A stretch of DNA of 64,000 nt from Protonemura montana. Lineage: Eukaryota > Arthropoda > Insecta > Plecoptera > Nemouridae. The stretch is from NCBI GenBank assembly GCA_947568835.1, contig OX387603.1, forward strand, positions 25,630,651 through 25,694,650. The letters are read 5' to 3'. The notes beneath the pieces were generated by a model. The model was not told where the DNA came from and ran no database searches. It saw only the letters and a list, made by a program, of their open reading frames with translations. The position numbers were made by a program, and so were the translations under genes. This document shows positions 21,716-64,000 of this stretch, one piece after another; the stretch's first letter is position 1, and every line of letters starts with the position of its first letter.

Positions 21716-24700
21716 AGCACGCGACGTTACGACAAAAGCTCAAAGTGCTTTGGACAATAACCGTGACGTCACGAGACTTTGCGTGATATCCTTGACCCCA
21801 AGTGTTTGTGCACGTAGGACTTTTTGGCGGGAGTTTTGTCACAGTTCGAAAACATTCCGCGCTCTACGCCACTTGGATCGCTGCCCGGTCTCGCCATCAC
21901 GGTCCAGTGGCGTGCGCCTCGGCACCGTGACTTGATGTCACCGATTCTCTAGCGTGTGTTTGCCGGCTCGGCGGCGATGTCGCCCGCTTGGGAACGGCAC
22001 GTATCTCCCCCCGCCCCCCCTCCACCCCGTCCCACCCCATCTGTATATTGAACGTTACCATATGCAGTTTCTGTCAATAGAACTCTACTATCAAATTGCT
22101 GTGTTGTTTTCATTGCATCCTACACTCAAACGCCTCCATATCTTTACTGTTGACTCGTAGATCACGCGGGCTCGCCATCGCAAGCGTCGCTGAGCTGCAA
22201 GAAAGGTATGATTCACGTAAGGACATGGTACATCCAGCCTAGCAGGCAGTAGTGGGTAGGCCCGGTGTAAGCAAGTAGAACTTGGGGCAAAGGACGCCGA
22301 CGATGCAGTCGCAGTCACTGATTTCGGCAGCGATTTTGCTCTGATGCAGGTACAGGTCCGCTGTCGCCCTGTCATTGGGCCTTTTATCGTAGCATGAGAG
22401 AGATACGTTATAGAGAGAATAAGAGAGGAATAGCAAGTGAGCTCTGCAACGCAACAAGTGCGGCGGCGTCGGCGTGCGTGGACGTCGAGCGTCGTCGTGT
22501 GCGTCGTGCCTTGCAACTCGACGCGATGCACGGACGCCGTTTTAAGCCGTCGTTAAAAGTGGCGCGCGTAAAACCGCGCGGCGGGCGGCGGCGGGGAAAA
22601 CGGAAGGGAGGCGTTTTATTGCTCCTGTTTATCGGCGTCGCCATGACTCCGACGCTGGCACGCCGTCGCGACGGCGACCGCTTCATCAGTCTACGTCGTC
22701 TGTCGGTCGTCGGTTCGATTCCCATTGACTAATTATAGACAACGATCGGCCGCTTCGTCTGTTCTAGATCAACCTTGCCGTGCATTGCACGGTAATCGTT
22801 CTAATTTCATCGGTCAACGGGCAGCCAGTCCGTCGGAAGCCGGAGGACGCCGACGACGCATTGTGTTTGCGTGTTGTCGGTAGGGTGCGACGTGCGCGCC
22901 GAACTATGCAGAAATTAATTCAGAACGAAAAGCCCCGATGATCTATCTCCTTCGAAAGACAGAGCAATCCGACGCCTGAGCCGCGACGACCGCGACGCCG
23001 TGCAGCTTTGTGCGCCACGACGCCCGCGAGTGCGATGCCGAGGCAGTCACGTGATCGCCGCCCTCCCCCCCCCTCCCCCCTGTCCCCCTCTCCGACGCCG
23101 CCCCGTCGACGCCCGGCACGCGGACGCGTGACCCAGCATCGATAATTAGACGGGACGCCCCTCGACCCCAGCCGTCCCCCACCCAACCACCCAGCCACCC
23201 CCTGCGTGAGCGTGCGGTACCATGCAGACGACGTATAGGCTTTGAGAGAGAGAGAGTCTTGGTGGCATCGGGAGTGGCTATCTGCTTACAATCAATGTGC
23301 GCCCTTCTATCGTTATTTCAGAACTCGCCAGTCGGTTCTGGAGAGTTTGGAGATGTTGGAGAATGCCACTAATTTGTCAGTTTGCTGTACTTACCGATGA
23401 AAAGATTTCACAAGAAAATAACTGATAACTTAGAGAAAACACGCTTTTTTATTATTATAGACACTATAACCGTCTCAGAAATTGATGCCCAAACGCGGAC
23501 TCGGACCCCGATCTCCACCTATCGCGGGTGTTGCTCTAACCCATTGAGCTACTTGGACACTGGCTTTTTGAGACGATTTTAGTGTATTTGATGAGAATGA
23601 CGGATCTCCAAGGAGAAGAACCAAGAGGCTGTGAATACTCACAGTCACTCTGATTCTAGTGACGCTATACCACGTCACAACCTGTCAATCTCGAGTAACT
23701 CTAATTTGACGTTGAATGCGTTAAATTTCTAGATGAAATCTTATTTAAATTGCAAACGCTTGCAATGCGCGGGGTATTTTATTATTTTGAACACTACTAC
23801 CGTCTCAAGTCATGTCTTCTTACATCGACAATTGAAGTTCGCTTGTTATTTACATTTCAGGGAAATTGTTATTATTTTGGTGCGCTTCATGCGCTGAGCT
23901 CAACCTCAGGAAACTAAGCTTGGATTTGGTAAAATGAGGTAGCTATTGAAAGACGACTTTAGCAATTTCGGCTTCGAAAATGTTTCGCACTTCTAGCAAA
24001 GTTAGAGGAACTTTCTAACTTCCACAAAGGCTTGAATTTTTAGCGTTGCAACTTGTTATTTCTCATTTTGATCGCTTTCGTTGCGTTTTCGAATGCATCT
24101 TCTACCAATACATGCATTGCAATTCCATAGAATTGGGTGGGGGTCGTGCACGTGAGTTGGTAACATAGCGTTTTAGATGGTTAATTTGAAACGGGTCGAA
24201 TTGCTGACACCTGACAAGATCAACTTGAATCGAACAAAGACTCTACTGATTGTGAAATGTGATTTATTTTCAAAATGTTAGCAATGGACAAAAAATGTGA
24301 TTATTACGAACACAAATAACCACTCAAAAATTGGTGTCCAAATGGGGACTTCATTTTGCTACTTAAAAACGTTAAAACTTGACTCTGGCGGATGGATTTC
24401 AATATGTTGAACGAAAATATACGTCGTTGAAGCCTATTGCCTGTTTACACAACTTTATTATTCGGTTTCGGCATAAGAATCCTCCGTCATGGCGGCCATG
24501 ACAGGCAATTCGCCGAACGCCATTCCCTGCCTACCGGCGGCTCTCGGCTCTCGGCGCGAGCGAGCGTGGAGTTATCGGCGACGTGGTGTGGAAGTGGAGT
24601 CGTCGATCGATCACCGCCAGCTTGCCGCGGCTCACGACCACGTCGTCGGACGCCGACGCCGACGCCGCGTCGTGCTGGGATTTCCCGTCCGCGGCACGGA

Positions 24701-25384: not shown

Positions 25385-25850
25385 CGCAAACCGAACGGTT
25401 TGGCGTGTTGGAAACACCGGTTCTCGTGAGATCACCGAAGTTAAGCAACACTGCGCTGGGTCAGGTATTGGATGGGTGACCATCATACGCACGGCCAGTT
25501 CTGTTCGGGAGAGAGATTGAAGGGATGAAAGTTAGTACAGCTTCTTCATTCGCCTTGCTTATCAACCTCTCGACAGCATATATTTGTGGAGGAATCCTGC
25601 TGTTTGAGATGTACCGTCCTTCGGAAGGGACGTTAAGCCGGTGGTCCCCTTGGTGCTCTTCAACAGGAGTAGGCTAAGTGCCGGCACCGGGTTTCCCCTC
25701 CTTCCTTCTAGGCTACTAGGTTCCTTCTAGGTTCATCATCATCCACTCATTCACCGACGCCATTAGACCAGTGCCTCACGGCCAGATGTCAAAACAGTGC
25801 GTCGTTAAACACTACAAACCAACCGCTCAAGACGAGTCACCCCTTGACCA
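25385..25850 (+). repeat. 5S-rRNA-derived SINE, fullest copy
   Basis: Positions 25385-25500 resemble 5S rRNA, with ACCGGTTCTCGTGAGATCAC, CGAAGTTAAGCAAC and GGATGGGTGACC, which include the internal pol III promoter elements. A body then has CTTCGGAAGGGACGTTAAGC and GTGCCGGCACCGGG, and a 3' end CACTCATTCACCGACGCC … AACAGTGCGTCGTTAAAC. Partial copies lie near 0.8, 35.4, 38.6, 43.9, 45.3, 53.95 and 60.1 kb. Attaching a 5S head to an unrelated body is the hallmark of 5S-derived (SINE3-type) retroposons. Confidence 0.85.
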
Positions 25851-28051: not shown

Positions 28052-31000
28052 ATGAAGTCGAAGAAATTCAAATTACCACAGAGTCCTCCTGGAACGTAAG
28101 TCGCGCTGTTCATCGCGAAATATACTTGGTTATAAGGAGTGAGAACAAGAAACAGTTCTCTTCTCATAATTCGAGGTTATGTTTCTGTACTCACATTTAT
28201 ATCTCATTGCAGAGGGCTCGACGACAAGAAGGTGCTGGTGATTTCGTTCTTCGGAAAATCTCCACACAACGCGGCGGGATGCAAGACGGGTCTCCTCGAC
28301 GGATTCCTCGGCCGCACAGTTTTCCAGTCCTCAATGCTTGATGACCCAAGCATCGAAGACACTGAGGCTCTATGCGACATCGAAGGGTTTTACGACGAGA
28401 GCCAAAAAATCATCTTTCTTCACCTGCGTGGGGTCTTTGACACGCATTCGATAGTCAAGATATACAAACAGTTTGAAACCAGGCTAGAGGAAGATGTAAG
28501 GCTAACAACATTGGCAGCACTAGCATCTTAAAACTTCCACTTCATAAACAGTCCGAAACATATTTTTGCTCTTTCTTTTCAGGGCTATTTGACTGTGTGG
28601 TCCGAGCTGAATTCTCGCTATGCTCGAGCTCTGCTCCTGCTCTTCTCGATTTCCCACATCCTCGTTCTGTCGCAGCCTTCACACACGTTTGACCTCGGCT
28701 ACCTGTCTTTGTTCCGATCGCTGGACAATATCCGGTGAGTAACACCAAAGTTAATGAAATCTAAAATATAGTCCTTGTCGCTGCCAAGTTTTTTGCTATC
28801 CTATAAAACTGTCCGTGCACACAGACAGAAGCTTCAGCCGGAGGTGGTAGAAGTGCTGTCGTCGTTGCCACGGCTTCCAAAGGATTGGGCAGCAAATGGC
28901 AGACCTTGCAGTCCTCGCGTTCTCTTCTGCTTTGAGACGTGCCCCGCTCTATATCGTCAGAGCAACGCCGGAAAATCTGTTGGCACCTTCACCAGCACCG
29001 GATTGCACGGGTAAACCTATTTATACCCGATTATTAGCTAGCCGGCTCTTGGCACAGAGGTAAGGCCTGTTTTTCTCTGCAAAACTTGAGTCATTTCTCA
29101 TAAATTTTCTATCATTGAATGGAGTCTATCATTGACTGCACTTTCCTACAATAAAGGAAAAATAACAATTCATATAAGAAAAGTTTACGATCGTTCCCCT
29201 TGACCTGCTTACACCCTTGAAGTCACTTGAGCTACGGTCCCATAGTGTTTGAATTGTCTCCGTGACGACACGAATGGTAACCAGGTGGAGCGGCGAGGAT
29301 GAGCTTGTGCGGCCCGCGTCTATCGCCGGGGACAACCGAGGGAAGCCGTCGATCAAGCGACTGGAGCACGCACTCGAGGATCAAATCTACCACATCCTGC
29401 GCAAGAGCAGGATCATCGCTAACGTCAGGTAAACGTCGCCGAAGACCGTCTAGTCCGACACTCGGTGAAATATTATCACAATTCAACGGACATTCATAGA
29501 CACCCTGAAATCTTCAAGCTTGAAGGAAAAGTTTATGGTTGAACTTCAAATTCAAATTGAACTTCTATTTGAACGGACTGCTAATTTGATATTTGCTTGG
29601 CAACAGCCAATCAGAAAATGGTTTTCTAATTATTTACGTTACGTTAACCACGTTATGTTATCTTAACAGGCCGCTGAAAAGCTGGTCCTTTATAAACTTC
29701 ATAAATTTTCATGTAGACTTATTGACAGACGATTAAAGATTTAGCGAGATAATGAAATATCTAAGAAAAGTACCTATTTTGTAAAGTCAAGCTAAGTCTG
29801 AGCATATTAGGATGAAATCTTATTTAAATTGCAAACGCTTGCAATGCGCGGGGTATTTTATTATTATGAACACTATAACCGTCTCAAAATTTGATGCCCA
29901 AACGGTGGAGATCGGGGTTCGAGTCCGCGTTTGGGCATCAATTTTTGAGACGGTTAAAGTGTTGTTAGTGGCTTTATTCACTTGTCTTTTTATGTTCAAA
30001 CTGCATTGCCTCGTGTCATTGTTGCTGCCGTAACTTGTATTGTTGTGTAAACTTTTATAATCTGGATGAGCTTTGTCTTGCATTTCACCGCTCATGACCA
30101 TCTTTCAAATTGTCTGCTCTGATTGGCCACAGCACCAACTCACTGTTCGCCATCCCAGCCAATCAGGAGTTTGTGTTTGTGAACTGCGCGGGATCGGACG
30201 CTGCTCGCGGTCGCCTTCACTTCCTAGCGCACTCGTTGGTGGAGTTGTGCAACCGTTCGGCCGCGACCACGGGGACTCGACAGGAGTCTGAACCATTCGT
30301 CACGGCGCCCACACATGCACCAGGCAACGGTAACCAAGCAACGGTAGCCGGGCGGTAGTTTCTGTCCATTATCAGCTCAAACCACCGCCTTGTTTTGGTT
30401 AGTTTCTACATATTTGACCACCAGTCCACACACAGCCTTGTAGATGTATCGTAGACTGACTCTGGATTGAAAATGCACTTTGATATGGGAAAGGGAATGG
30501 TACATAATACGCCGGTTGAACTCAAATATCTTCGTTTAATTCGCAGAGATATATATGCAATAACCAAGCACAATCTCTCAACTGCCGTTGCATGAAAACT
30601 GATTAAAAATTGACATTGATGAACTAGCTTTTAAAAGTCTAGTCAAAAATGTCTTAATTTTAATTTTTTTTATAATTTATAATTTTATTGTTTCACAATT
30701 CTATACACGTAATGCAGTTTAGGTTCATACAAAGAAAACAAAAATAAAGTTGTGAAAAATCCTAGATAAGTTACACTTGCGTGTGGGCTTCTCACAACCT
30801 TAAGGTTCTAGTAAGGTTAGGTAATCTACTAACAGATGCTTAAAATTCGAGAGAATTATTTCCTTTTTTGATTATCAACTCAAAAATGTTGGTTTTGAAT
30901 TTAATCCAGTCTCTTACAGTTCTGACTGTCCAACACTTTAATGTCATGTCCCATACCATGGTCAATCAAGACAAATAAAAATAGGTTAACTAAAAAAATA

Positions 31001-34000: not shown

Positions 34001-37000
34001 AGCTGGCGCTAGGTGCGGGCAGCTGCAGCTGGAACCCGGAGTAGACGCTGCGTGAGTTGTCACCGAGTTTCTGTCGAATCCGTTAATTCCTATGCCATTT
34101 TTCTGCGGTGTTGCACGTTGGGTAGATTATGTATTTTTACTTAACTGCCTGTGAAAGTTGGTTAATTGGTTTGAACTGCCCAATATTGTCAAATTGTATT
34201 ATGTTGTATTACTCGAGATTGACAGGTTGTGACGTGGTAAAGCGTCACTAGAATCAGAGTGACTGTGAGTATTCACAGCCTCATGGTTCTATTCTTTGGA
34301 GATCCGTCATTCTCATCAAATACACTAAAATCTTCTCAAAAAGCCAGTGTCCAAGTAGCTCAATGGGCTAGAGCAACACCCGCGATAGGTGGAGATCGGG
34401 GTTCGAGTCCCTGTTTGGGCATCAATTTTTGAGACTGTTTATAGTGTTGATAATAATAAAATGCCCAATGTTATCTTTTGCATAAACTAAATTTAACTTT
34501 TACTAAAAATAAAGCCTTATCAAGAATATTAAAAAAAAAAAAATTCAGAAAAATGCACAAAACTTGGAACACCATTTCACGTAGGTTTTCAATTGTTGAC
34601 ATCGTCACAAATTTCTCACGAACGGTGCTCGTTGTCTCAGGGCTCTCCCGTGTCGCGGACACTCGAGCGGCGTGCGCTACACGGCTGCTTGCAACTGCGG
34701 GCGCGCTCACGGGGTGCGTGAAGACCCGTTCTCCGCTCGCGCCGCTAACCACGAGTTCTACCAGCGTTTGGCTGAGGAATGCGGCTGCGGCGCTCTCGAT
34801 GCATTCCGCTTCCCGGTCTTCACCCCGAGCACCCAGGACTACAAGTAAGCACGGCGCCGCCGGATGTCTCTGAGTGACGGCTGGCCAACGCAGTTGGAAT
34901 AACAATAGGGAAATTAGCAAAGCTTTAAATATTTTATTTAAATGAAATCTTATTTAAATTGTAATTGCTAACAATTTAAGTAAGATTTCATCTAAATACA
35001 ACAACAAATCCAACGTCAAATTAGAGTTACTCGAGTTTGACAGGTTGTGACGTGGTATAGCGTCATGAAAATCAGTGACTGTGAGTATTCACAGCCTTAT
35101 GGTAGCTCAATGGGTTAGAGCAACACCCGCAACAGGTGGAGATCGGGGTTCGAGTCCCCGTTCGGGCATCAATTTTTGAGACGGTTTTAGTGTTAATAGT
35201 AATAATAAACTTTAAATGTTTGATTGGTTTGTGGTACTTAACAATGGTCTGTTGTGATAATGGGCCCTGTGGCACTGGTCAAACGGTTTTGGTGAGTGGT
35301 TGAAAATTACTGATACCTTACCAATACTAGAAGAGAGGGGGGCAACTGGGTGCTACAGGATTGGCATCCCTTCCAAAGTCATGAGTGTGATGGTCACCCA
35401 TTCAATACCTTACCCAGTGCTGTGTTCCTTAACTTTGGTGATCTCATAAGGACCATATTAGCTAAGTTTAAATTAATTTTAACTACAAAGGTATACACGT
35501 TTTGAGTGCCAGATTGATCCTATGCTCTGCCCTCTGCAAAGGTTGCCTTTCTCTGAGGCTTTCACGATTTCTCTGACATTCTCATTGGTTTGCAGGGCAG
35601 CTCAGCTGTTCAACGCCCGTCCCAGTGTGAAATCGGCACCAGCCGAAGTCGAGGGCCCGGTGTGTGAAGCCCACTCGTTCAGTCTTGGTAAGTGAGTCCT
35701 GAACGCTGGTCACTCGAATGCCTGGGGTGGCTCTGAATTCATTGCAGTTTGTAGAGAGTTCACCATGTTCACAACACATTGCCTAAATAGTTTGCAGGTA
35801 AAATTTAAAAGCAGGCCTTACACACGCTGCCCATGCAATCTTACAAGCTGACAACTTAAATTGAATACAGCAAACTTTGCAATCAATGAGCTTGGCTCAG
35901 TGTAATTTCTTATCATTCTTTGCTTCCTATCAATGTTAATCTTGGTTTCATTGAGGATAGATTGTTGGTAGCTGTTTAATAATGCAATAGACAATTGCAT
36001 TTTTCTTTCAATCCAAATGACCAATTAGTGTTTTTCAAAGATGATTTTATTTTCACTCTGGTCATGTAGATGTAATTCCGCTCAACACTGGCTATAATTT
36101 CTGCCAAGCCGAAATTGACTCTGGAAATTTTAGTTTGCAGTTGATTGCAATAAGTTGTGTTTCCAGCTGGCTTTGTCTCGGACGTGGCTTCCGCGTGCAG
36201 TGACCTTCTTGCCGAGGATGAACCAAGTCGCACGAGCCCTCCCCCTGCCTCAGCGCTCGTTTCGGATTGGCCAGCTAGTTCGGCTCTGGCCTCTGATTGG
36301 ACCACCAATACAACGCATGCGTCTGATTGGGCGGCTGGCTCAACACTGCCCACTGATTGGCCAGCCGAGAGCCACGACATCGTAATACAAGTGTCAGACC
36401 ATGCAGAAGCTGAACACACAAAGGGTGAGTCTAGCTAGTTTCTGTATCCATCTTTCGTTATCTACGTAGCTGCATACGTTTGTTTCGAGGCAAAGGGCAA
36501 CCTAACCTAGCTTTGTGTGCCTCCCGCCGCAGAGAAAGGTCTGGTGCGGCAGCCTTCGACCACCGAGTACCTGCCCGGCATGTTGCACACGGACTCACCG
36601 TCGGGCCTGTTGCCACGCTTTCCGTCGTGGGCGCTGACCAGCCTCGGAGCTTCCAGTCTCTACTCGCACAACCTGGGTCTGCAAGACCAGCCCAACCTGT
36701 TGCCCGGCTCGGCCTTCCTGCTGCCCTGGGATGTAGCCGTCCGACTACACGGGCATCGGTAGGTGGTCCCTCCCTCTTGCCGATCCGTGGCTGGGCCTTT
36801 ATTTCTTGCCAGAGTTGTCTACATTAGAGATGGAGATTATAATTTTTGTATGCTCCTGACAAACTTACCATCACCCTTTCGGTTTTCATCATCTTCTTTT
36901 TCCACCTCATTTTTTTTTTCAGCCATAGATACTCAATCCATCCGTCTATCCTATCCTACCTATCCTATCTCCACCTATCCTTCCGTCTATTTTCACTCTC

Positions 37001-46090: not shown

Positions 46091-47584
46091 AACCGTTGAG
46101 TGTGCAGGTTCTAGGTGGAGACAGAACGTTAATGTTAAACCGTTGAGTATGCAGGTTCTAGGTAGAGGCAGAACGTTAATGTTAAACCGTTGAGTGTGCA
46201 GGTTCTAGGTAGAGGCAGAACGTTAATGTTAAGCCGTTGAGTGTGCAGGTTCTAGGTAGAGGCAGAACGTTAATGTTAAGCCGTTGAGTGTGCAGGTTGT
46301 AGGTAGAGACAGAACGTTAATGTTAAACCGTTGAGTGTGCAGGTTCTAGGTAGAGACAGAACGTTAATGTTAAACCGTTGAGTGTGCAGGTTATAGGTAG
46401 AGACAGAACGTTAATGTTAAACCGTTGAGTGTGCAGGTTATAGGTGGAGACAGAACGTTAATGTTAAACCGTTTAGTGTGCAGGTTCTAGGTAGAGACAG
46501 AACGTTAATGTTAAACCGTTGAGTATGCAGGTTATAGGTAGAGACAGAACGTTAATGTTAAACCGTTGAGTGTGCAGGTTCTAGGTGGAGACAGAACGTT
46601 AATGTTAAACCGGTGAGTGTGCAGGTTCTAGGTGGAGACAGAACGTTAATGTTAAACCGTTGAGTGTGCAGGTTCTAGGTGGAGACAGAACGTTAATGTT
46701 AAACCGGTGAGTGTGCAGGTTCTAGGTAGAGACAGAACGTTAATGTTAAACCGTTGAGTGTGCAGGTTCAAGGTAGAGACAGAACGTTAATGTTAAACCG
46801 TTGAGTGTGCAGGTTCTAGGTAGAGACGGAACGTTAATGTTAAACCGTTGGGTGTGCAGGTTCTAGGTAGAGACAGAACGTTAATGTTAAACCGTTGAGT
46901 GTGCAGGTTCTAGGTAGAGACAGAACGTTAATGTTAAACCGTTGAGTGTGCAGGTTCTAGGTAGAGGCAGAACGTTAATGTTAAACCGTTGAGTGTGCAG
47001 GTTCTAGGTAGAGACAGAACGTTAATGTTAACCTGTTGAGTGTGCAGGTTCTAGGTAGAGACAGAACGTTAATGTTAAACCGTTGAGTGTGCAGGTTCTA
47101 GGTAGAGACAGGACGTTAATGTTAAACCGTTTAATGTTGTTTAACCTGCACACTCAACGGTTTAACTTTAACGTTCTGTCTCTACCTAGAACCTGCACAC
47201 TCAACAGGTTAACATTAACGTTCTGTCTCTACCTAGAACCTGCACACTCAACGGTTTAACATTAACGTTCTGTCTCTACCTATAACCTGCACACTCAACG
47301 GTTTAACATAAACGTTCTGTCTCTACCTAGAACCTGCACACTCAACGGTTTAACATTAACGTTCTGCCTCCACCTAGAACCTGCAAACTCAACGGTTTAA
47401 CATTAACGTTCTGTCTCTACCTAGAACCTGCACACTCAACGGTTTAACAATAACGTTCTGCCTCTATCTAGAACCTGCACACTCAACGGTTTAACATTAA
47501 CGTTCTGTCTCTACCTAGAACCTGCAAACTCAACGGTTTAACAATAACGTTCTGCCTCTACCTAGAACCTGCACACTCAACGGT
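46091..47584. repeat. 48-bp minisatellite arranged as a giant inverted repeat
   Basis: About 22 copies of a 48-bp unit (ACCGTTGAGTGTGCAGGTTC … CAGAACGTTAATGTTAAA) run forward from 46091 to ~47136. After a short turn (GTTTAATGTTGTTTAACC) about nine copies run in the opposite orientation to 47584. The two parts could fold into a hairpin of up to ~450 bp per arm, leaving ~600 bp of forward array unpaired. Confidence 0.95.
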
Positions 47585-49043: not shown

Positions 49044-52000
49044 ATGTTTGCCTGCACGATTTTGACGCTCTGGGCGCTGTGCAGCCTGGCGGCGTCGGGG
49101 GTCGGCGTCGACGGTCATGCCATGTACGTCGCGGCGCCGAGGGGATCGCGCGTCGTTCGCGACGTCGCCAACACGGTCAGTTTCACCTCATGGATCTTGT
49201 CTCAGCGACAATTTGACAGTGCTACCAATTGCTAGATAATGTGACCCGTGGTAGTATATTATATAACCCCGACCTAGAGGGGCTTTTTGGTGGGGCTACC
49301 ACAGTGCTGCAGAATGCGAGACACTTTTATCGAGCGTAGCGAGAAAAACAAATCCTAACTTTTACCAAAATTTACCAAAATGTATGTTTCGAATTTGCTG
49401 ACTTAAGCACCACTAGCAACAGGTATTTCGAAAGAGTTACAACCGTAGCATTATCAAGAAGGCTTAGGTGTCTATTGATCAACACAGTTTCAAAACAAAA
49501 CAAGGCAGAAACTGAAAATGGCGCTAGTAAATAATGCCACTCAAGGTCGGGGTTACTGCTTGGTGCTATGGTGGTGCTAGTTAGCACGGTGCTACTGACA
49601 GTAATACCAGGGTAACTGCTTGGTGCTATAGTGGTGCTAGTTAGCACGGTGCTACTGACAGTAATACCAGGGTCACTGCTTGGTGCTATGGTGGTGCTAG
49701 TTAGCACGGTGCTACTGACAGTAATACCAGGGTAACTGCTTGGTGCTATGGTGGTGCTAGTTAGCACGATGCTACTGACAGTAATACCAGGGTCACTGCT
49801 TGGTGCCATGGTGGTGCTAGTTAGCACGGTGCTACTGACAGTAATACCAGGGTCACTGCTTGATGCTATGGTGGTGCTAGTTAGCACGGTGCTACTGACA
49901 GTAATACCAGGGTCACTGCTTGGTGCTATGGTGATGCTAGTTAGCACGGTGCTACTGACAGTAATACCAGGGTCACTGCTTGGTGCTATGGTGATGCTAG
50001 TTAGCACGGTGCTACTGACAGTAATACCAGGGTTACTGCTTGGTGCTATGGTGGTGCTAGTTAGCACTGTGCTACTGACAGTAATACCAGGGTTACTGCT
50101 TGGTGCTATGGTGGTGCTAGTTAGCACGGTGCTACTGACAGTAATACCAGGGTCACTGCTTGGTGCTATGGTGGTGCTAGTTAGCACGGTGCTACTGACA
50201 GTAATACCAGGGTCATTGCTTGGTGCTATGGTGGTGCTAGTGAGCACGGTGCTACTGACAGTAATACCAGGGTCACTGCTTGGTGCTATGGTGATGCTAG
50301 TTAGCACGGTGCTACTGACAGTAATACCAGGGTCACGAATCACCGCTCTAGGTCGGGGTCAATGCTTGGTGATATGGTGGTGCTAGTTAGCACGGTGCTA
50401 CTGACAGTAATACCAGGGTTACTGCTTGGTGCTATGGTGATGCTAGTTAGCACGGTGCTACTGACAGTAATCCCAGGGTCACTGCTTGGTGCTATGGTGG
50501 TGCTAGTTAACACAATGCTACTGACAGTAATACCAGGGTCACTGCTTGGTGCTTGGGTGGTGCTAGTTAGCACGGTGCTACTGACAGTATTACAAGGGTT
50601 ACGAATCACCTCTCTAGGTCAGGGTCACTGCTTGGTGCTATGGTGGTGCTAGTTAGCACGGTGCTACTGACAGTAATACCAGGGTTACGAATCACCGCTC
50701 TAGGTCGGGGTCACTGCTTGGTGCAATGGTGGTGCTAGTTAGCACGGTGCTACTGACAGTAATACTAGGGTCACTGCTTGGTGCTATGGTGGTGCTAGTT
50801 ACCACGATGCTACTGACAGTAATACCAGGGTTACGAATCACCGCTCTAGGTTGGGGTCACTGATTGGTGCTATGGTGGTGCTAGTTAGCACGGTGCTACT
50901 GACAGTAATACCAGGGTCACTGCTTGGTGCTATGGTGGTGCTAGTTAGCACGGTGCTACTGACAGTAATACCAGGGTCACTGCTTGATGCTATGGTGGTG
51001 CTAGTTAGCACGGTGCTACTGACAGTAATACCAGGGTCACTGCTTGGTGCTATGGTCATGCTAGTTAGCACGGTGCTACTGACAGTAATACCAGGGTCAC
51101 TGCTTGGTGCTATGGTGGTGCTAGTTAACACAATGCTACTGACAGTAATACCAGGGTCACTGCTTGGTGCTATGGTGGTGCTAGTTAGCACGGTGCTACT
51201 GACAGTAATACCAGGGTCACTGCTTGGTGCTATGGTGGTGCTAGTTAGCACGGTGCTACTGACAGTAATACCAGGGTCACTGCTTGATGCTATGGTGGTG
51301 CTAGTTAGCACGGTGCTACTGACAGTAATCCCAGGGTCACTGCTTGGTGCTATGGTGATGCTAGTTAGCACGGTGCTACTGACAGTAATACCAGGGTCAC
51401 TGCTTGGTGCTATGGTGGTGCTAGTTAACACAATGCTACTGACAGTAATACCAGGGTCACTGCTTGGTGCTATGGTGGTGCTAGTTAGCACGGTGCTACT
51501 GACAGTAATACCAGGGTCACTGCTTGGTGCTATGGTGGTGCTAGTTAGCACGGTGCTACTGACAGTAATACCAGGGTCACTGCTTGGTGCTATGGTGGTG
51601 CTAGTTAGCACGGTGCTACTGACAGTAATACCAGGGTCACTGCTTGGTGCTATGGTGGTGCTAGTTAGCACGGTGCTACTGACAGTAATACCAGGGTCAC
51701 TGCTTGGTGCTATGGTGGTGCTAGTTAGCACGGTGCTACTGACAGTAATACCAGGGTCACAAATGACCACTCCAGGAATGACGCCAGGTTGACCAATGAA
51801 CCAAGCATCGACCACCGCCTCCTTGTATCCGCAGGACGACGCTGCGTCGCCGACGATGAAGAGTTGGAGCGTCTCGACGGACGTGCTGTACCGCTACGCC
51901 AAGACGAGCGTCGCGACGCGCCTCGTGAACCCGGCGTCGGTCGCCCGGGAGCTCTCTTTTAGCGCCGTCCTGCCGCAAGCCGCGTTCATCTCGGCCTTTC

Positions 52001-55000
52001 ACATGTAAGTCTTACGCTTATTGGCTGGACGTACCCCTACCACCCCTGGGCTCTATGCAGCAAATGAGCGTTTCAAATAATCCATGTTAAATCGCATACT
52101 TCCTTTAAATTATTTATCGCATGATAGTTATTTCATCAAAATCCTCCAAACACCCTGGTAGCAATGGTGGTGAAACGCCCCCGTGTTTGTTGCAGCGAGA
52201 TGGACGGCAAGGTGTACGACGCGTACATCAAGGAGAAGGAGGCGGCGAAACAGGAGTACCACAACGCGCGCAACAGGGGATGGACCGCCGCCACCGTCGT
52301 CAAGTGAGTGGTAAACGCCCTCCCCACGGCACGTGTTTGAGGTCGTTTGGAGGATCGCGGTCAAGTTTTGTAGCTATAGGTCGAAGCCAGGAACGTAGGC
52401 CACCTTGAAACTCTGTAACCAGATCCACACAGGAGTATAAGCCCAGTCACTGTAAGTTCTGGAATACATTTTGATGGTTTTTAGACTCATGTCTACTTAA
52501 TTTATTCTTAGCACTAGTTTTTAGAAAAACTTTTTGAAATGGGTGTTGAATGCTAAGTAAAGGGCTACTAAATTTCCCGACTTTTCGTAACATGTACTAG
52601 TTACTTCTTCTAGTTAATTCCCTTTGTTATCGCCATGGTAACGAATCTCCACAATCTGGAAACACCGTCTATGATTGGGTCTATGGTTGGAAAAACTCTC
52701 TCTTTGGATGCTATTCCCACGCGGCCTTCTGGAAACGGGCTTGATTTTTAAGAGTAGCATTCTGCACGCTGCCTTCCAAGAGGCTTTGCGCAGGATCTAG
52801 AAGATATAATAATAATAATGCAGACATTAGTTCCGGTGTTTCTCGTGGGGAGTGCTGTAGTCGTTATTTAGCATCGTTCGTTAGCCAATGGCGATCGACA
52901 ACCTAGCCTAGCAGGAAGCAAAGTGTGAATCGCGGCCGGCCTGGTGGGGTAGCCCAGCCTAGCAGGGAACAGAGGGTGTTAACAGCGCCGCCGCTTCTGC
53001 GCAGGGCGCGTGACTCCAACGTCTTCACGGTGTCTGTGAACGTGGAGGCTGGCGGCAAGGTGACGTTCAACCTGACCTACGAGGAGCTGCTGACGAGGAA
53101 GCTAGGACTCTACAACCATATCATCAGCATCGATCCTGGCCAGGTAGACACGGGCCGTGCTGACTTTGTGGGTCCAGTCGGACACCGGTCGGACCGGACA
53201 TAATCTTGCATACAATACAAACTAATTGCATTTTGAACTCTTAAAGTCTTCTCGTAATGAGCGCAAGAACGACTTAGAAAGGCGAAAGCAATTATGAATT
53301 TGGTACCCGCTCACAAACGACGTATCTCGGATTGAAAAACAGCGAAAAGTCGATAAGCACTTCTTTTCTTGAACATTTTAGAATGAATAGAAGTAAATGT
53401 GTGTCACGATCGACTCTTCTGTGTCCTTCCAGTCTTTGTTCTATGCTTTGTGGACCATCGGTTTGTGTGCTTGTGCGCAGTGCTGCGCTTTGCCAGTCGG
53501 AAATAGAATAAAAAATTAATTTTCCTTGTCTCAGAAAATTGACATGAAGACAACTTGGCTAATTAAAATGTTCCTCATTCTTTTGGCGCCTCAGCTGATT
53601 GAGGCACCGTTGCCCCCTTGGTCGCACAGGTCTGCCAAACAACTAGCTTGAAAACCAGGAACACTGACCGCGTTGTTTCCACCAGGTCGTGCCCGAACTG
53701 TCCCTGCGCGTGCGCGTGGAGGACGCTCTGCCCCTAGTCAACTTCAGCGTGCCCGCTCTACGCATGTCCAACGAGATCGACGCCACAGGTGGGTGGCGTT
53801 GAACTTTATGCCGAGTCATGGTGCGCATATCGCAATCACGGCCTTCTCGAACTTACATCTCGGTGCTGTTTTGATCCCGGTCTCGGCGTGTCAAGGTTGC
53901 ATACGTTATCAACGACGGGACAGGCCGTGTGGATGATGGTCACCCATCCAATAAGTATCCCATAGCCAAAGTGTTGCTTAACTTCAGTGATCTCACAAGA
54001 ACCGGTGTTTCCGCCACGCCAAACCGATCGGTCATTGGCTTGTCATACGGCACGGGACACGTGAGATCGCTTCCCCCAACCCTCTACAAGCGTCAACGGC
54101 GTCCCCTTTGTTGCAGGCGTCGTGGAGGCCGAGACTGGCGCGTCGGGGCCGGCGACGATCACGCAACCGACGCCCGAGGTCGCCATCGTAGAGTGGTCGC
54201 CGTCAGCCGAAGAGCAGCGAGCCCTACGTAGCGAGGGACTGCGCGCGCAGCTAGTCGTGCAGTATGACGTGGAACGTGACAACCATCCTGCGCAGATACT
54301 GGTAAGAGCCCCAGTGGTGTAGTCGAGGGTATACGCCGTATACCCAAAAAAACTTTTTGACAACGAGCGTATACCCCAAAAAAATATACAGGGTATACCT
54401 ACGCCCAATGAATATTGAATACTCTTTGCAAAACATTAAATGCGTTTTGCAACGACAACCTGCACTTTAAAAACTCAAAAAGCAAGGTTTATTCCGAAAA
54501 GTGGGTAGTCCGTGTAAAGTAGCGGTTCGTATGATCTGGATGGGTATGCAATGGTTTTTCCAAGCAGTCAACGTACTCATTCAACCCACCCGAGGAAAGC
54601 ACGATTGCAGCTACCCCAACACCAAGCAGTAGTTTACTTGGTCATCTTGGGAATGATCGTTCTGAAATGACTGTTATTGGCACAGAGGATCTTACTCCTG
54701 AAGGTTGGTCAAGAAGTGAAGGTTTTGGTTGGAGATGAGAGAGCTATCACATAAGTTGACAACGAAGCCGATAGAAGAGTGAGGCGTCTGAAATCCTTGC
54801 ATTGAGATCCTCTTAGGGAGTAAAGACCTATACAGTGCTGCATGCACGTAATCGAGAAAGCTTTTAACCTCATCTCGAAACTTGCTAATCGCCCTTCTCC
54901 CTGCGACAGCTGGCCGACGGCTACTTCGTGCACTTCTACTCGCCGACCACGCTGACGCCCTTGCACAAGCACGTGGTGTTTGTGTTGGACACGAGTGGCT

Positions 55001-58000
55001 CTATGGATGGTTCCAAGATGCCTCAACTAAAGGAGGCGATGTCGACGGTGCTGAGCGACCTACGCGAGGGCGACTCCTTCTCTATTGTGCTCTTCGAGAG
55101 CGAAGTCTCGGTGAGCACAATGGGGTTCACTTAGGGCGTTCTCAGGGTGGTCAGCGTCGACTCCGATCATAACATGACGCCTGGGAGTCGATTTCTGCCA
55201 AACCACACAGATGATTGTTTTTAGACTCGTGTCTACTTGATGTAACCTTAGCACTAGTTTTAACAAAAACTATTTGAACTTGGGTTTGAATGCTAAGTAA
55301 AAAACAACTACATTTCCCTAAATACCTCCTCTAAAGACACAAGGGCGTGAGGGAATTTAGTTGTTCTTTACTTAGCATTCAAAACCCAGTTGAAATAGTT
55401 TATGTTAAATAATCTTCTGTGTAGATCTCTTTCAAAATAACTCTCAGTCTTATGGTTGCATGTAAGTTTTCAGAGCCGTGATTCTAAGTTAAGGTGTGCT
55501 TTTCGGTAATATGTTTTCACTATTAAAAGAATTGTTTATTCGCTTCTCCTTCTGAGCTCTCACTGCTGCTATCTCTGCAAAGTCCACCTGCCAGACTGAC
55601 CGACCACAAGGCGTTCTTGAAACATGAACCCACCAGGCGACGACGACTAGGTCGACTGTAGATTGTTGACCCTCATCGCCTTCCCTCGCTCACCAAGTTT
55701 CGTCTGTCGACAGGTGTGGCGGCCCAATGCCACGCCGATCGCAGTGCAGCTATACCACAATGAGGTGACGGTACCCGTCGAGGCGGTGGTGCTCGTCAGC
55801 CAGGAGAACGTCGCACAAGCCAAAGCGTTTGTCGCCGATCTGGTGGCCTCGGGAGGTACGACACGGATCCTTGCCTTTAAGCAGCGACTAGCTCGATATT
55901 TCACTCGGAGAGGCACCTGCTATGAAACTTGTTGTGAAGCATTCAATACATATTTCGGATGAGCTTTTCTTAAAAACTACACTTTACACAGTAGGTCGCT
56001 TGGTGGTCACTGTCAATTTCACTCGCCTTGCTTATCGCATGACCTGTTGACAAAACAGTGCGTCGTTAAGCACTAAAAATAAATCAATTCTTCTCCAGAC
56101 ACACGTGGGTAAAACGTATCTTGTTTCTGCGAGACGAAAACTAATCGTGTCCCACTCCCTGGCAGGTACCAACATCCACGACGCGCTGATGGTGGCGCTG
56201 GAGGTGGTCAAGCTTGGACGCCGCGTGCTACGCTCGGCCAAGGTCGGCGAAGTACCTGAACCGATGGTGGCGTTCCTGACGGACGGCGAGGCCAACACTG
56301 GCGCGCTGACAGACTCGCCGGGCATCGTGCGCGCCGTCACCGCCAAGAACAAACGACGCACGCCGCTCTTCTGCCTGGCGTTCGGTCGCGACGCCGACCT
56401 AGCGTTCCTCAAGCAGCTAGCGTTGGCCAACGCGGCCTTCGCGAAGCTCATCTACGAGGCCGGGGACGCGGCGCTGCAGCTTAAAGATTTCTACCGCCAG
56501 GTGGCGTCGCCTCTTTTGGCCAACGTCACCTTCATATACGAGCCTGGGCAGGTATACGCCTTACCTTCCCTCGCCTTGCAAACGCCCATGAAATCGACAA
56601 GGGGTCTTGTCTCTTTACCTTTATTCAACTCTTACAGGTTGACAATTCGTCGCTGACCACGCTGCACTTCGGCACGCTCTTCGCGGGCAGCGAGCTCGTC
56701 GTGGCCGGACGGCTGGTTGCAGGCGCTGACGACGTGACGCCTAGCTCACTCGACCGCATGCGTGGAGTTGTGATGGCTAAAGCGACTACTGGCAAGGCAC
56801 GCTTTGGATTCCCGGTCCCGACGGTGAGTCCTACCCTGATACCTTGGCATTCGTACGCCACGTATGAATTGGCTATTTTCACGTGACGTCGTTTAGCATA
56901 CCGACCAAAATCTGCACCGACGAACATTGCAGTTGCTACTGGCTACAGTACTTCCCTCCGATGACGCTCGAAACATTCGCATATGCTTTCTGAACGGTTA
57001 TACGAGATGCACGATGTTTTGAGTCGTAATTGCAGAGGTTTGTTAAAAAGGACGGGCAAGCCATCGGGTGGCAGTTCGACAGCTCGGCAAGACATTCAAA
57101 ATTAACGCTGAGAGTCTGACTAAGCGTGTAAACTCAATGCTGATAGTTAATGAGTGTAGTCCCATATTTTGATTAGACAATAAGGCTTAAATCCCCCCCC
57201 CCCCCACCCTTCCTCACACTAACACCACAAACGGCCTAAGATGGCGCCTTGCAAACGCCTTCCCTCTCTCACGGCGTAGCTATGTTATCTCCACGAACAG
57301 GTGGCCGTGCGCCCTGGGCCGTTGCCGCTGTCGACGCCGAACGAGGGGAACGAAACTCGACGCCAGGCGCCGTTCATGGAGCGTCTCTGGGCGCACCTCA
57401 CCGTGCAGCAGTTACTAGACAATGAGCACGCCGCCGGCGACCCTGCCAGTTCCGCCGGACGCACACGCGCTCTCGAGCTCGCCCTCAAGGTAGCTGTCAG
57501 ACATCTCTCTTCGGAACCAATCCATGGAATAAGGCGTGTTTATCTGGTAGACTAAGTGAAATTGAAGACCTCTGCATGTCACGGCAGAGTTTTTGATCGT
57601 CACAATCTTACTTTCGTGTCGGTATTTTTACTGCCTCTCTCTCTCTCTCTCTTCTCGATTCCATCTTGGAATGTCAAACCAACTAACTACCAAGCATGAC
57701 AGCATTATATCAGCCGAAAAGCTGAACAATGCATTCTACCTCCACGACATAGTTGATCCTTGCATGAATCCTTGCATGTCCGCACATCAGAGATTCCTGT
57801 TGCTTGCAACGGGCTGCAGAATCCTTGATAGTGTAAGACAGAGGCTATATAATGTGAGACGATCGCCATGCTGCCGGGGTGATATGGGGGCCACGGCAAA
57901 AAGAAAAGAATCGAAGACCCGACTGACTTCTGTGTTTGGAAGAACAGCTTCATCGGCTGCCGAATATCTTATTGGGGTGAACCGGAAACAAAGAGAAAAA

Positions 58001-61000
58001 CGCGACGTTCGGTCTAACACGTACAAGTTATCTTCCAAAGCGAACCGTTTCGGACCATTTTAGATATCGGCAAGTGGTTCTCCTATAGTTTTCACCACTT
58101 GACCAGTCGATGAAGCCTGATTAACGCTCTACTCCATGCCTGGCCTTTAGTACTCCTTCGTGACGTCGCTGACGTCGCTGGTGGTGGTCAAGCCAAACGC
58201 AACGTCGGCGGCGTCGGACCCGGTGGAGGCAGGGGCCGACGACGCGCCCAGGTATGGGGGAGGGGCGTCGTATTTATCCAGGGCGCCGTCTGCTGGTTAT
58301 TCGGGACATGCCGGCATCGTTGGGTACTCCGCAAACGTCGTGTCCATGAGTAGACCCTCTAGCTTGCAACACTCGAAACGTAAGTATCAGCTAATTCGTG
58401 TCCTGGTTTGATCGCACACTTTTCCAGTCTAGCCCCGTTTCCAATTTCGGCAAATTTCGACCTACTTCAATGATTATCACGATTGAGCATGTTTAAGAAA
58501 TTTGAGAAAATGTAAGACCACACAACCTAGAGACCAAAAAATATAGACCACAACCTAAAACCTCTTCTGATTGGTTGTTGTCAAGCAAATAACAAATTAG
58601 CGGACTGTCAAGTTTTTATCAAATAACTGGAAACTGGCCCTTAAGATATGTTTACATACATAGGCATACATACCTACACTTACACACGCCATGATAAGTC
58701 AAGTGCATGCTATCATTAGGTTTTTAGGTTTATTCAGAGTACTACTGCCAATATTAAACGTTCTGATAGGTCATGGTAGTAGCCACCTGATGGCGCTTGT
58801 GGCCGCTCTTTTTATCTAAGCTCTAAAATTACAAAAAAAATTCTCAAATTATAGTAATCTGCGACGAATAACGACAGTTTAGCATTTGCACCGAGGCTCT
58901 GACTAAACCCACCTGATAATACTAGTACATAACCTCTCTTCAAAGTTGCTTCTTGCTGACTCGACTTGATATTCATATTCCAAACATACACACATGAAAT
59001 AATCCTGATTTAAAAGACCTCCATGCAATTCTGCAGGTTCGCTCTCAATCTACGGTGCCGACTTTGCAAGGGTGCAGTGTCATTTCCTGTCGACCGTACC
59101 ACATCTTTGTCGTGCAAGCGATTGCTTCGTTAAACATCGTCGTAACTATAATTGACAACTTTCTATTGCACACAGAGGCGCCGACACCTGTCTGGAATCA
59201 CCGTATCTCCTCAGGGCACGTCCAGAGTAGTATCAGCCAGCCTACCATGGAGATGAACGTGTACGACACTGCGGATGACGAAGATTCAGACCTAGCAGGT
59301 ATACCAACTGTCGAGGGTCTTTCTTTTCTAGAACTTTATCTGCATCTTTGTCGTCGTTATGCGACGTTATGTCTTCGTTGTCAACATTGCTTGGTTTATG
59401 GTTTTCAAAATATCGGTGTTTTAAAGAAAATTATTGTGGTGACTAAATTCGCGGCGATTGCCATGTCACATGGCAATTGCCATAACTTGTTTTCTTTGGT
59501 AACTTGTTTTCCAGTGACATGAGATTTCATGAGATGTTTAAAGCTAAAAATGGAAAATGCCTCATCTTGTCTCATCTCATCTCATTTAAGTGGAAAAAAA
59601 GGGTACACAACACTACCTTCACAGACAACGCCTCGTCTAAACGCGCTGGCGTAAAGATATCGAATAGAAGCTTCCGGAGCTCCTAGGTCTGCGGTGTGGC
59701 ACCGAGCAACGATGGCCGTTATATTCCTCTAATCCTTGCCGTCGTGGTCTTGTCTTTTTCCCAGGTGTAGCTCTGTCGATGGACTATCGTGGTGGGCAAC
59801 CCCAAATTCCTCACCCACCGCCGCCACCGCCGCCACCGTCGACGACGCAGTCCCCACTGGACCCGCTATCAACAGGTAACACGACTCATCCCTCGTTTAA
59901 ATATAGGTTTCACACTTTCATGTTGAAATAAAAAATAACAAAAAATTACAACAATAAGGAACATGTCGTGGTTTGATTCTTAGTTCATTGATATGTGGTG
60001 CTATTTAACGCACTTTTTTGACGGCGGGTCCAGTGGCATTTGTTGAATCTATAAATTAGTGAGATGACGAGGACGATTCGGAAACAAGCCTAGACGTGAG
60101 AATGAGAAACCCGGTGCCGGCACGTAGGCTTCTCCTGTCCAAGAGTCCTAATGGGACCATCGGCTTAATGTCCCTTCCGAAAGAACAGTATTCCTTCACA
60201 AATCCATGTGGTCAAGAGGTTGGTAAGCAAGGCGAGTGAAAAATACCCACCGATACTACTAATTTACCGATATTTCGACATTTAAAATTAATTTGTCGAT
60301 CATTTGGGTCGTAATTGCTGGACTGCATATATATGTTTTTTTTTTATTTTTATGAAAGACGGTAAGCACCATCGGGTGGCAGCTACCATTACCCAGCGTT
60401 GCCGGCTCGTTTGCTCAGCAGAACGTTTTACATTAGCGCTGAAACTTTGCCTTAATCTGTAAGCCTGGTTACCTGGTTGTACTAACCCATAATCAACGGG
60501 TGGACCAAAGAGCCAAAGAACCAGACGCAGAAGTAACAAGTGGCTTTACTCCAAATGTTGTCCTGGCAGGTGCCAGTGCACTCGTTCGACTGACCTTGGC
60601 CGACATCACGTGGGACGACACCGTCATGAACGCGACCCACGTGTTCGTCGCTGCGTCCTTGCCTGGGTCGACAAACCAAACCTCAACCGCGTTCTTGATC
60701 GGCGTGGGACAGGCGAGTACTCTCCTCACAGCCTTCGTGTTCTGTACACCCGTGGTAACATAAGAAAGTTGAATTGAGAATCTCTGTTGGGAGATATCAT
60801 CATCTCTATGGCAAGCATTGCACCTCTTACGCTTGATAGTATGTTTGCTTTCATCGTTGGGAGCAAATTGGGCTATCATAAAAACACCGAAGAATACCAA
60901 CATATTTAAAATGGAATGCCACGCATGCTATACTATCTGCCGTGTTCATCCGTGTCTTATCTGTCAGGCCGTGATCGTCTGGTGGTGAAACCATGATTTA

Positions 61001-61443
61001 GCTGCACACGAGTAACGGCCGTGTCAAAGTACTTCGAAACTTGTCATGTCCACATAAATAAAATATCAGACCAAGAGTTTCAAATCCCCCGTGTAAGGAG
61101 AAAGACGAAGACGACCTCAAGGAGAAAAGACTACCTTAAGAGCAACGTGTTTTATCGCCCCATCCCTGCAGCCGGACGTGGACACCGGCATCTGTCCAAG
61201 CGTGGGCGAGGTCTCCCACTGCCGGTTCCTCCCACACTGCGTGCTGCCGGAGTTTAGCGACGACTACAACAGATACGTGACCGTCTACTTCTGTGCCATC
61301 GAAAGGTACGTGCCGTCCTCCTAGCTGCAGGCTACTCACCCGATGCTCAGTTTTGTCCACCAACGCCCACTTTTGTTCACAGCTACGCTGGAGTTTGCTG
61401 CCCAGCTTCGCGCCACACTGTGACTGGAGTCGACTTGCCCTGA
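49044..61443 (+). CDS. ITIH: Inter-alpha-trypsin inhibitor heavy-chain-like secreted protein with C-terminal clip-like domain (complete, 17 exons)
   Basis: Exons: 49044-49175, 51835-52004, 52196-52303, 53005-53143, 53686-53788, 54117-54301, 54910-55110, 55714-55855, 56166-56551, 56638-56823, 57301-57489, 58151-58379, 59176-59298, 59765-59875, 60570-60712, 61172-61305, 61383-61443. All phases join: 913 residues. A signal peptide (1-~24, MFACTILTLWALCSLAAS) precedes a VIT domain (~53-185; FHIEMDGKVYDAYIKEKEAA) and a VWA domain (~300-490) with intact MIDAS DTSGSM at 306-311 and FLTDGEAN. Many N-glycosylation sites occur. Vertebrate heavy chains bind hyaluronan and carry a DPHF site for chondroitin-sulfate linkage; no DPHF is seen here. 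Instead a proline-rich linker leads to a six-cysteine module (GICPSVGEVSHC … PHC … YFC … VCC) resembling an arthropod clip domain. Intron 15 is GC-AG. AATAAA lies at 61570. Confidence 0.92.
49545..51760 (+). repeat. 60-bp minisatellite filling most of ITIH intron 1
   Basis: About 36 units of 60 bp (GTGCTAGTTAGCACGGTGCT … CTGACAGTAATACCAGGGTC …) lie inside intron 1 (49176-51834). Each holds the near-palindrome GTGCTAGTTAGCAC. Variant units with ACGAATCACCGCTCTAGG appear near 50335, 50600, 50690 and 50835. The 60-bp period keeps long frames open on both strands (up to ~325 codons); these are a by-product. Confidence 0.95.
52466..52612 (+). mobile_element. Partial copy of the foldback/MITE element, ITIH intron 3
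   Basis: One arm only: GGTTTTTAGACTCATGTCTA, CTTAGCACTAGTTTTTAG, TTTTTGAAATGGGTGTTGAA and ACATGTACTAGTTACTTCTTC. Confidence 0.7.
53925..54035 (-). repeat. 5S-rRNA-derived SINE head in ITIH intron 5
   Basis: The minus strand reads GGTTTGGCGTGGCGGAAACACC, GGTTCTTGTGAGATCACTG, AAGTTAAGCAACAC and GGATGGGTGACCATC, a clear counterpart of 25385-25500. It lies ~80 bp upstream of exon 6. Confidence 0.8.
55207..55415 (+). mobile_element. Foldback/MITE element copy, ITIH intron 7
   Basis: Both arms are present (AACTATTTGAACTTGGGTTT … GTAAAAAACAACTACATTTCC and GGAATTTAGTTGTTCTTTAC … AACCCAGTTGAAATAGTTT) with a different ~45-bp centre. Confidence 0.75.
57035..57135 (+). repeat. Dispersed repeat of the 'CCATCGGGTGGC' family, ITIH intron 10
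   Basis: GGACGGGCAAGCCATCGGGTG, GCAGTTCGACAGC and TAACGCTGAGAGTCTGACTAA match the family order. Confidence 0.6.
57193..57205 (+). repeat. 13-base C run, ITIH intron 10
   Basis: An uninterrupted C13 tract about 95 bp before the exon 11 acceptor. Confidence 0.9.
57490..58150 (+). other. ITIH intron 11 with an unexplained 156-codon open frame
   Basis: A plus-strand frame is open over 57593-58063, and two minus-strand frames of ~80 codons overlap it. A (CT)n run sits at its start. The peptide has no domain I recognise. It may be a decayed insertion; I do not call it a gene. Confidence 0.4.
58725..58805 (-). repeat. Dispersed repeat of the 'CCATCGGGTGGC' family, ITIH intron 12
   Basis: TTCAGAGTACTACTGCCAATA, ACGTTCTGATAGG and AGCCACCTGATGGCGCTTGTG resemble the 14157 and 48115 copies. 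Confidence 0.5.
59995..60240 (+). repeat. 5S-SINE tail family copy, ITIH intron 14
   Basis: GACGGCGGGTCCAGTGGC, GATGACGAGGACGATTCGG, AACCCGGTGCCGGCACGTAG, GCTTCTCCTGTCCAAGAG, CTTAATGTCCCTTCCGAAAG and GTCAAGAGGTTGGTAAGCAAG give most of the family body. Confidence 0.8.
60355..60475 (+). repeat. Dispersed repeat of the 'CCATCGGGTGGC' family, ITIH intron 14
   Basis: AGCACCATCGGGTGGCAGCT, GCGTTGCCGGCTCGTTTGCT and TTAGCGCTGAAACTTTG form a clean copy. Confidence 0.7.
60713..61171 (+). other. GC-AG intron (ITIH intron 15)
   Basis: The donor is CAG|GCGAGT, with an otherwise ideal U1 match as expected for GC donors. Using it joins the GVGQ codons in phase 0 to the acceptor CCCTGCAG before PDVDTGIC. 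No GT donor in the right phase fits as well. Confidence 0.7.
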
Positions 61444-61569
61444 CTGCGCTCACCCATCGGATGTCTTCATGCAAATCCGCCAAACTGCCTCTGATTGGCC
61501 GCCAGTTGTCCATCGAGGCGCCCTCTTCATGTGCATTGTTGTAACTAGCCCATCGATTGGTGGAATTCT

Positions 61570-61575
61570 AATAAA
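61570..61575 (+). terminator. Poly(A) signal AATAAA for the ITIH-like gene
   Basis: AATAAA 127 bp after the ITIH stop codon at 61441. Confidence 0.7.
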
Positions 61576-61617
61576 AACGATACCAACTGAACTCGGTGTT
61601 TTTACACCTATAGACAG

Positions 61618-61930
61618 GAAACGATTTACTTAGGGCACTTTGTTACCAACTGTGGAAAAGAATGCACGTTTGAATCTGTACGAGATCCAAGAGCTGGCAA
61701 CCTTGAGGATGCCCCTTCCCCTCCGAGGTTCGGCATGTTGCCGCCAGGCGCGCTTCTGGCAGGCTACGCTACGTGAGTGATCCAGTGTGCATTGAGTAGG
61801 GGAGCCACAAAGCCGTGACAAGAAACCGTGTCCCTGTGCGTCAGATTGTCACCCTCCATCTGCGTTCGACGACGGCCACCTATGGCGTCGACAGCCGTGC
61901 ACGTAGCGTGCTTCCTTACGAATCTCATCG
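61618..61930 (+). CDS. Candidate 5' exons of the downstream lipase gene
   Basis: Two exon-like frames, 61618-61772 and 61845-61930, are phase-compatible with each other and with the lipase exon at 63205 (the second ends with one base, G, completing GAA). The first encodes FVTNCGKECTFESV and MLPPGALLAGYA; the second has a hydrophobic stretch (MASTAVHVACFLTNLI) that could be a signal peptide. The first begins within 50 bp of the ITIH poly(A) signal. It has no in-frame ATG between the upstream TGA and its acceptor, so it may instead belong to a different transcript. I do not recognise the peptide. Confidence 0.3.
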
Positions 61931-63062: not shown

Positions 63063-63204
63063 TCTAATGGTGCTACTTGCATTCAACGAAACTCTCACAA
63101 GAAATGTTCCTAATTTTCAGACGGCACCCGAGAGTAATAAGAATTAATTCACTGTTTGGTAGCATATCAAGATCTTTATTCTCTCACCGTGCCTTTGTTC
63201 CCAG

Positions 63205-63949
63205 AACCTCCCGGCATGATGGTGTACGATGAGATGTACTTCCAAATACTTCCCATCGAACGTTTCCGCAAGGGATGCTCGGAAGTCAGCAAGTTCATCA
63301 AGTTCCAGCTCTACACCGAGTAAGAACACAGGGTCCAGGCTCAGTATATTAACACCGAGCTAACGCGCTAAGAGTCCCTGCCCATTTCCACTCTGCATTT
63401 GAAAATAGCCCACTCTTCACTTGCACTGTCCTCTACAACAAACTCCCCAGTAACATTAAAAACTCCCCAACAACGTCCTCATTTAACCACATCCTAAAAT
63501 CCTACCTCATAGATAACCCATTCTACACCTTACGTGAATACCTCGAAACCTTATCCACTTCTCTCCCTCCCCATCCCTTTTACAAACCATGATTTAAATT
63601 ATATAAAAAATGTGATCTTTGTGAATACTGTATATATATATATGAATAGATATATAACTGACGATCCTTACACAATTACTATGTAAATGCCTATAGGAAA
63701 ATAAAACAAATAACGAAACGTCTCTCATTGCCGCAGGTTGTCGACGCCAGGGACAAACTTGACGCTCGGCGACGTCGCGGCGTTGTCGGCGTCGCCGTTC
63801 GACCGACGCCGCCGCACGTTGCTCTACTTGCCCGGGTTTGCCGAGAGCAGAGACGGCACGACGACCTATGCACTGCGCGACGCTTTTCTGGCTCGCGGAG
63901 GGTACAACTTCGTGGTCGCCGACTATCTCAAGCTCGTCGCCGGCCCTTG
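63205..63949 (+). CDS. Pancreatic-lipase-family gene, 5' part, truncated by window edge
   Basis: Exons 63205-63319 and 63737-63949 join in phase (GA|G). They encode a cysteine and then KFIKFQLYTE, the usual first strand of the α/β-hydrolase lipase domain. NLTLGDVAALSASPF, TLLYLPGFAESRDGTTTYAL and YNFVVADYLKLVAGPW follow, matching the family pattern (h-h-hPGF…, NhhhxDW). The last donor is GTGCGT at 63950. The GxSxG nucleophile elbow would lie right of the window, so catalytic competence cannot be judged. The position usually occupied by DW is DY here. By family knowledge these are secreted triglyceride or phospholipid hydrolases; arthropods have many, and some are inactive yolk-protein relatives. 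The true start may use the exons near 61.6-61.9 kb. Confidence 0.75.
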
Positions 63950-64000
63950 GTGCGTTAAGGAAGCATGACACTGGTTTAATTGTGAAAATATTGAAAATAA

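Follow-up and report, generated by a model that had tools for sequence, protein, structure and literature searches.

Clip domains are small six-cysteine modules of arthropod clotting and immune proteases whose disulfides pair Cys1 with Cys5, Cys2 with Cys4 and Cys3 with Cys6, and in vertebrate heavy chains of the ITIH type the DPHF motif is the attachment site for chondroitin sulfate and serves covalent heavy-chain transfer. The clip-domain criteria in PMC1761132 are a Cys2-Cys3 gap of exactly five residues, with cSPH41 as the exception, Cys5 directly followed by Cys6, and 30-70 residues from Cys1 to Cys6; the paper also terms clip sequences hypervariable. ITIH-like proteins are found in the blood of insects: in one gel band of silkworm serum, ITI heavy chain accounted for 97.9% (PMC8367846). 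In the brown planthopper, RNAi of an ITIH-like protein reduced survival (PMC8951764). Here we describe a predicted gene of the plecopteran Protonemura montana whose product has a heavy-chain core of this type followed by a clip-like six-cysteine tail. The gene lies in a window of 64,000 nucleotides, by which we mean the whole stretch of DNA that was analysed, and positions are counted from its first letter.

Gene model and heavy-chain core

The gene (49044-61443, plus strand) was modelled with 17 exons, which were set manually from open frames and splice sites and whose phase fit was verified by script; spliced in silico and frame-checked, they give a protein of 913 residues. Splicing of this model is predicted from the sequence. 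All 16 introns preserve the frame and have AG acceptors, and the donors are GT in 15 of them and of the GC type in intron 15 (CAG/GCGAGT, at 60713). The features are as follows.

49044..49175, + strand: exon 1, which holds the start codon and an N-terminus resembling a signal peptide (called by eye); ORF start, GT donor, codon score 0.72
51835..53143, + strand: exons 2-4 (51835-52004, 52196-52303, 53005-53143), VIT domain, residues 52-162; Pfam VIT PF08487 (E 2e-27), splice sites and frame
53686..54301, + strand: exons 5-6 (53686-53788, 54117-54301), VIT-to-VWA region; phmmer alignment to PDB 9c4f (ITIH4) and 6fpy (ITIH1), splice model
54910..56551, + strand: exons 7-9 (54910-55110, 55714-55855, 56166-56551), VWA domain, residues 301-504; Pfam VWA PF00092 (E 1e-14)
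56638..58379, + strand: exons 10-12 (56638-56823, 57301-57489, 58151-58379), remaining heavy-chain core; phmmer to 9c4f
59176..59875, + strand: exons 13-14 (59176-59298, 59765-59875), linker of low complexity that includes an acidic stretch and a proline run; splice model
60570..60712, + strand: exon 15, 48-residue segment preceding the six-cysteine module, with the GC donor next at 60713; splice model
61172..61305, + strand: exon 16, Cys1-Cys4 of the clip-like module
61383..61443, + strand: exon 17, Cys5-Cys6 (VCCP) and a short tail, stop TGA included
61570..61575, + strand: polyadenylation signal AATAAA, starting 127 bases 3' of the stop codon

Codon scores were computed with exons 2-11 as the training set and introns 2-16 as the background. 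Exon 16 scored 0.27 per codon, compared to -0.36 and -0.34 in its two other frames, and exceeded all 140 overlapping 45-codon windows of the background introns (window maximum -0.24). Proline-rich exon 14 (-0.16) scored under both of its other frames, and its coding rests on splice sites and frame. The 20 codons of exon 17 (-0.34) were likewise under both other frames (0.31 and -0.13), and coding there rests on splice sites, frame and cysteines. In intron 1, tandem copies of a 60-base unit make up most of 49550-51760; a unit length divisible by 3 keeps long frames open on both strands (for example 349 aa on the plus strand and 351 aa on the minus strand), and these are no sign of a gene.

The ITIH-like VIT-VWA heavy chain proposed in the initial annotation was borne out by profile and pairwise searches. 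Both domains expected of an ITIH heavy chain, VIT and VWA, were recognised by Pfam with the E-values listed above, and the best PDB matches found by phmmer were ITIH4 (9c4f, E 1.7e-97, residues 53-675) and ITIH1 (6fpy, E 3.2e-70, residues 51-661; 6fpz, E 4.2e-69). These alignments establish a clear relationship of the protein to ITIH4 and ITIH1 of vertebrates. DTSGS, GGT and TDG, the motifs of a VWA metal site, are located in the VWA domain, and the NCBIfam model TIGR03788 matched the whole protein at 1.6e-39, under its cut-off. The ITIH4 alignment stops at residue 675, inside exon 12. Past this point follow a linker of low complexity (from the end of exon 12 through exon 14), the 48-residue segment of exon 15, to which no family was assigned, and the six-cysteine module; exons 15-17 had no Pfam match. 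The absence of DPHF that had been pointed out before was confirmed over the 913 residues, and ITI_HC_C (PF06668) showed no match to the protein at E<=10 in the Pfam search, a negative given without a positive control for that model. DPHF together with ITI_HC_C, as in the vertebrate HC1-3 type, was thus not found here, and ITIH4 presumably lacks both likewise. The missing DPHF makes it unlikely that the protein is joined covalently to chondroitin sulfate or hyaluronan in the vertebrate manner.

Several other elements were observed in the window. Two adjacent 47-base repeat arrays (46091-47131 and 47143-47584) have consensus units that are, by eye, mutually reverse complement. tRNA-Ser(CGA) was predicted three times, with both strands represented, and a fourth tRNA match was partial; these loci, at 9169-9244 (-), 23484-23559 (-), 34348-34423 (+) and 35103-35160 (+), are perhaps tRNA-derived short repeats, and a 5S rRNA match of 64 bits at 25391-25509 is perhaps a pseudogene or a 5S-derived repeat. 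An open frame at 28136-28528 has a Smg8_Smg9 match (2.9e-11), and a long open frame at 20759-21712 has a weak Hairy_orange match (E 0.0013, under the curated cut-off). Two exon-like stretches, 63201-63320 and 63732-63959, are lipase-like by eye and gave no Pfam match singly (E<=0.1) or joined (E<=1). A bacterial promoter/terminator scan of 61400-61700 returned nothing; such a scan has no bearing on an animal gene.

The six-cysteine C-terminal module

The module was recovered exactly where it had been annotated, in the last two exons (61172-61305 and 61383-61443). It reads C-x8-C-x5-C-x17-C-x8-CC, that is, a spacing of 8-5-17-8-0, and 42 residues separate Cys1 from Cys6. The protein contains nine cysteines, of which two (4 and 13) belong to the signal-peptide-like start, one (463) to the VWA domain and six (857, 866, 872, 890, 899 and 900) to the last 57 residues, where they form one 44-residue block. 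Cys463, the sole other cysteine beyond the signal-peptide-like start, aligns with a cysteine of ITIH4, and therefore the six could form three bonds among themselves. A six-cysteine pattern split by one GT-AG intron occurred at one place in the window, which is the module of exons 16-17, and in none of 25 dinucleotide shuffles, with spacing limits that were written after the case was seen. An intron divides the module, and AlphaFold, run on exon 16 only and without an alignment, gave a mean pLDDT of 49, uninformative on the fold.

With its six cysteines, a Cys2-Cys3 gap of five residues, neighbouring Cys5 and Cys6, and its Cys1-to-Cys6 length, the module falls within the published spacing criteria for clips (PMC1761132). 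The solved clips used for comparison (n=3; two of PAP-2, 2ikd/2ike, and one of Grass, 2xxl) have a spacing of 9-5-(23 to 29)-(8 or 9)-0; the module shares the five Cys2-Cys3 residues with all three and the CCP ending with two. The clip-type spacing noted in the initial annotation therefore stands, while clip identity found no support in the profile check: Pfam CLIP (PF12032) and CLIP_1 (PF18322) showed no match to the module at E<=10, though the same library recognised 3/3 solved clips (PF12032, 1.4e-12 to 4.9e-14) and a hand-typed consensus. Pfam was relied on since phmmer is a weak test in this family, where Grass and the two PAP-2 clips find one another only at E 0.16-0.29. A PDB sequence search with the module gave three matches (best E 0.3), none of which was a clip domain, and NCBIfam returned no family for it.

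Similarity outside the cysteines was compared with the same three clips. When the module was aligned globally with each clip in turn, the numbers of Cys-fixed shuffles, out of 2000, that did equally well were 305, 138 and 402, and 91/2000 for the sum, compared to 0 to 3 of 2000 when solved clips were aligned with each other. Segment by segment, with cysteines in register, the module was equalled by 61/2000 Cys-fixed shuffles and each solved clip by 0/2000. An HMM of the three clips gave the module 15.2 bits, which was reached by 0/997 shuffles and, in larger sets, by 0 or 1 of 1985-1996; it put Cys1 and Cys2 of the module onto Cys2 and Cys3 of the clips, and the core alone was also out of register. 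Because of this shift in register, the shuffle result was not counted as proof. Two-clip models scored the module at 4.2-6.9 bits, reached by 2 to 201 of 1962-1989 shuffles, whereas in leave-one-out runs of the same models the left-out solved clips scored 19.4-24.2 bits (0/1000 shuffles). hhalign gave the module a probability of 47% against the three-clip alignment, out of register, compared to 93% for the control, Grass against the other two clips. As far as sequence can tell, the non-cysteine resemblance to the three solved clips seems weak, and we grade the module as a clip-like scaffold and not as a proven clip domain.

Alternative explanations

The module could be another six-cysteine domain, for example of the beta-defensin or big-defensin type, or a disulfide cap peculiar to heavy chains of one lineage, which would have converged on clip spacing. 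Beta-defensin and big-defensin types have the same cysteine order and pairing as clips, and both the missing clip profile match and the weak in-register similarity outside the cysteines are what such a domain would show. However, the module has 17 residues between Cys3 and Cys4 and 8 between Cys4 and Cys5, longer than the ranges typical of beta-defensins, and no defensin family appeared among its Pfam matches at E<=10. The Cys2-Cys3 distance and the CCP end agree with solved clips as given above, which also argues for the clip side. We regard another kind of domain as possible but less probable than the clip-type reading.

It is also conceivable, though improbable, that some or all transcripts end before exon 16, with intron 15 read through to a stop and the transcript cut near the AATAAA at 61057, in which case the module would be absent or confined to an isoform. 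The frame is indeed open from exon 15 to the stop ending at 60763, the AATAAA lies inside intron 15, the donor of this intron is GC, and the codon score lends no support to exon 17. Against this, the GC donor matches the consensus at 8/8 positions besides the C, the best among the 16 donors, and an alternative GT donor at 60755 (5/9, weaker than any donor used) would keep the frame too. AATAAA or ATTAAA occurs 7 times in other introns (4, 6, 7, 8, 12 and 14), and the argument from the signal in intron 15 is therefore weak. Exon 16, in turn, codes better than every intronic window tested, and its open frame has no upstream ATG, so that it needs a 5' exon and fits only as a downstream exon.

Proposed function and comparison with known systems

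The reading that we prefer is an ITIH-like heavy chain, secreted into hemolymph or matrix, with a clip-type three-disulfide tail, and as a whole explanation we give it a probability of about 0.55. The VIT and VWA domains would be the ligand-binding core of the secreted heavy chain, and a linker of ~130 residues and the 48-residue segment would connect it to a clip-type module closed by three disulfides of its own. This module probably folds like a clip, with the clip disulfide pairing expected for it, and docking of a partner protein would be the likeliest role of the tail. A clip-like tail would point to concrete, testable partners, which are the serine proteases and homologs of immune cascades. 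Docking of such proteases or their homologs from clotting or melanisation cascades is, however, a speculative idea by analogy, and rather unlikely. No likelier is the bolder proposal that, in an invertebrate ITIH branch, a clip domain took the place of the C-terminal domain that links covalently to the matrix, holding clotting or melanisation clip-protease cascades at the extracellular matrix. The link between clotting or immunity and the matrix, suggested in the initial annotation, is kept here as a hypothesis.

No report of a clip domain together with a VIT domain was found in the open-licence literature searched, nor was the phrase clip-like domain, and database entries of arthropod proteins may already include this tail without comment. 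Pattern scans of viral contigs gave 10 matches for the module and 1 for the VWA-to-core part, and a scan of bacterial and archaeal genome contigs with the whole protein gave 8, none of which was a confirmed relative; the collections scanned were those of viruses, bacteria and archaea, and the negative outcome has no bearing on animals. Viral contigs held 0 matches to a degenerate DNA pattern of the CxFLPxC(V/I)LPxF core. The same pattern had 13 matches in genome contigs, which were rejected as chance, as a ~80-codon context held no clip-order module in 13/13 cases.

Compared to the clips of PAP-2 (2ikd/2ike) and Grass (2xxl), the module has the same six-cysteine order, five Cys2-Cys3 residues and adjacent Cys5-Cys6, and it differs in its shorter Cys3-Cys4 loop (17 vs 23-29), its lack of a Pfam CLIP match and its place at the C-terminus of a heavy chain. 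A clip-domain serine protease has an S1 domain C-terminal of the clip; here the module is itself the C-terminal end, and the Pfam search of the protein showed no S1 protease or protease-like domain. NlITIH4 of Nilaparvata lugens resembles the present protein in its signal peptide, VIT and VWA (~100 kDa there vs 913 residues here), and in the available passages of its description VIT and VWA are the only two domains reported (PMC8951764). With ITIH4 and ITIH1, the protein shares VIT and VWA, an alignable region from residue 51 to 675 and the DTSGS, GGT and TDG motifs, whereas in place of DPHF and an ITI_HC_C match it has the linker and the six-cysteine module instead.
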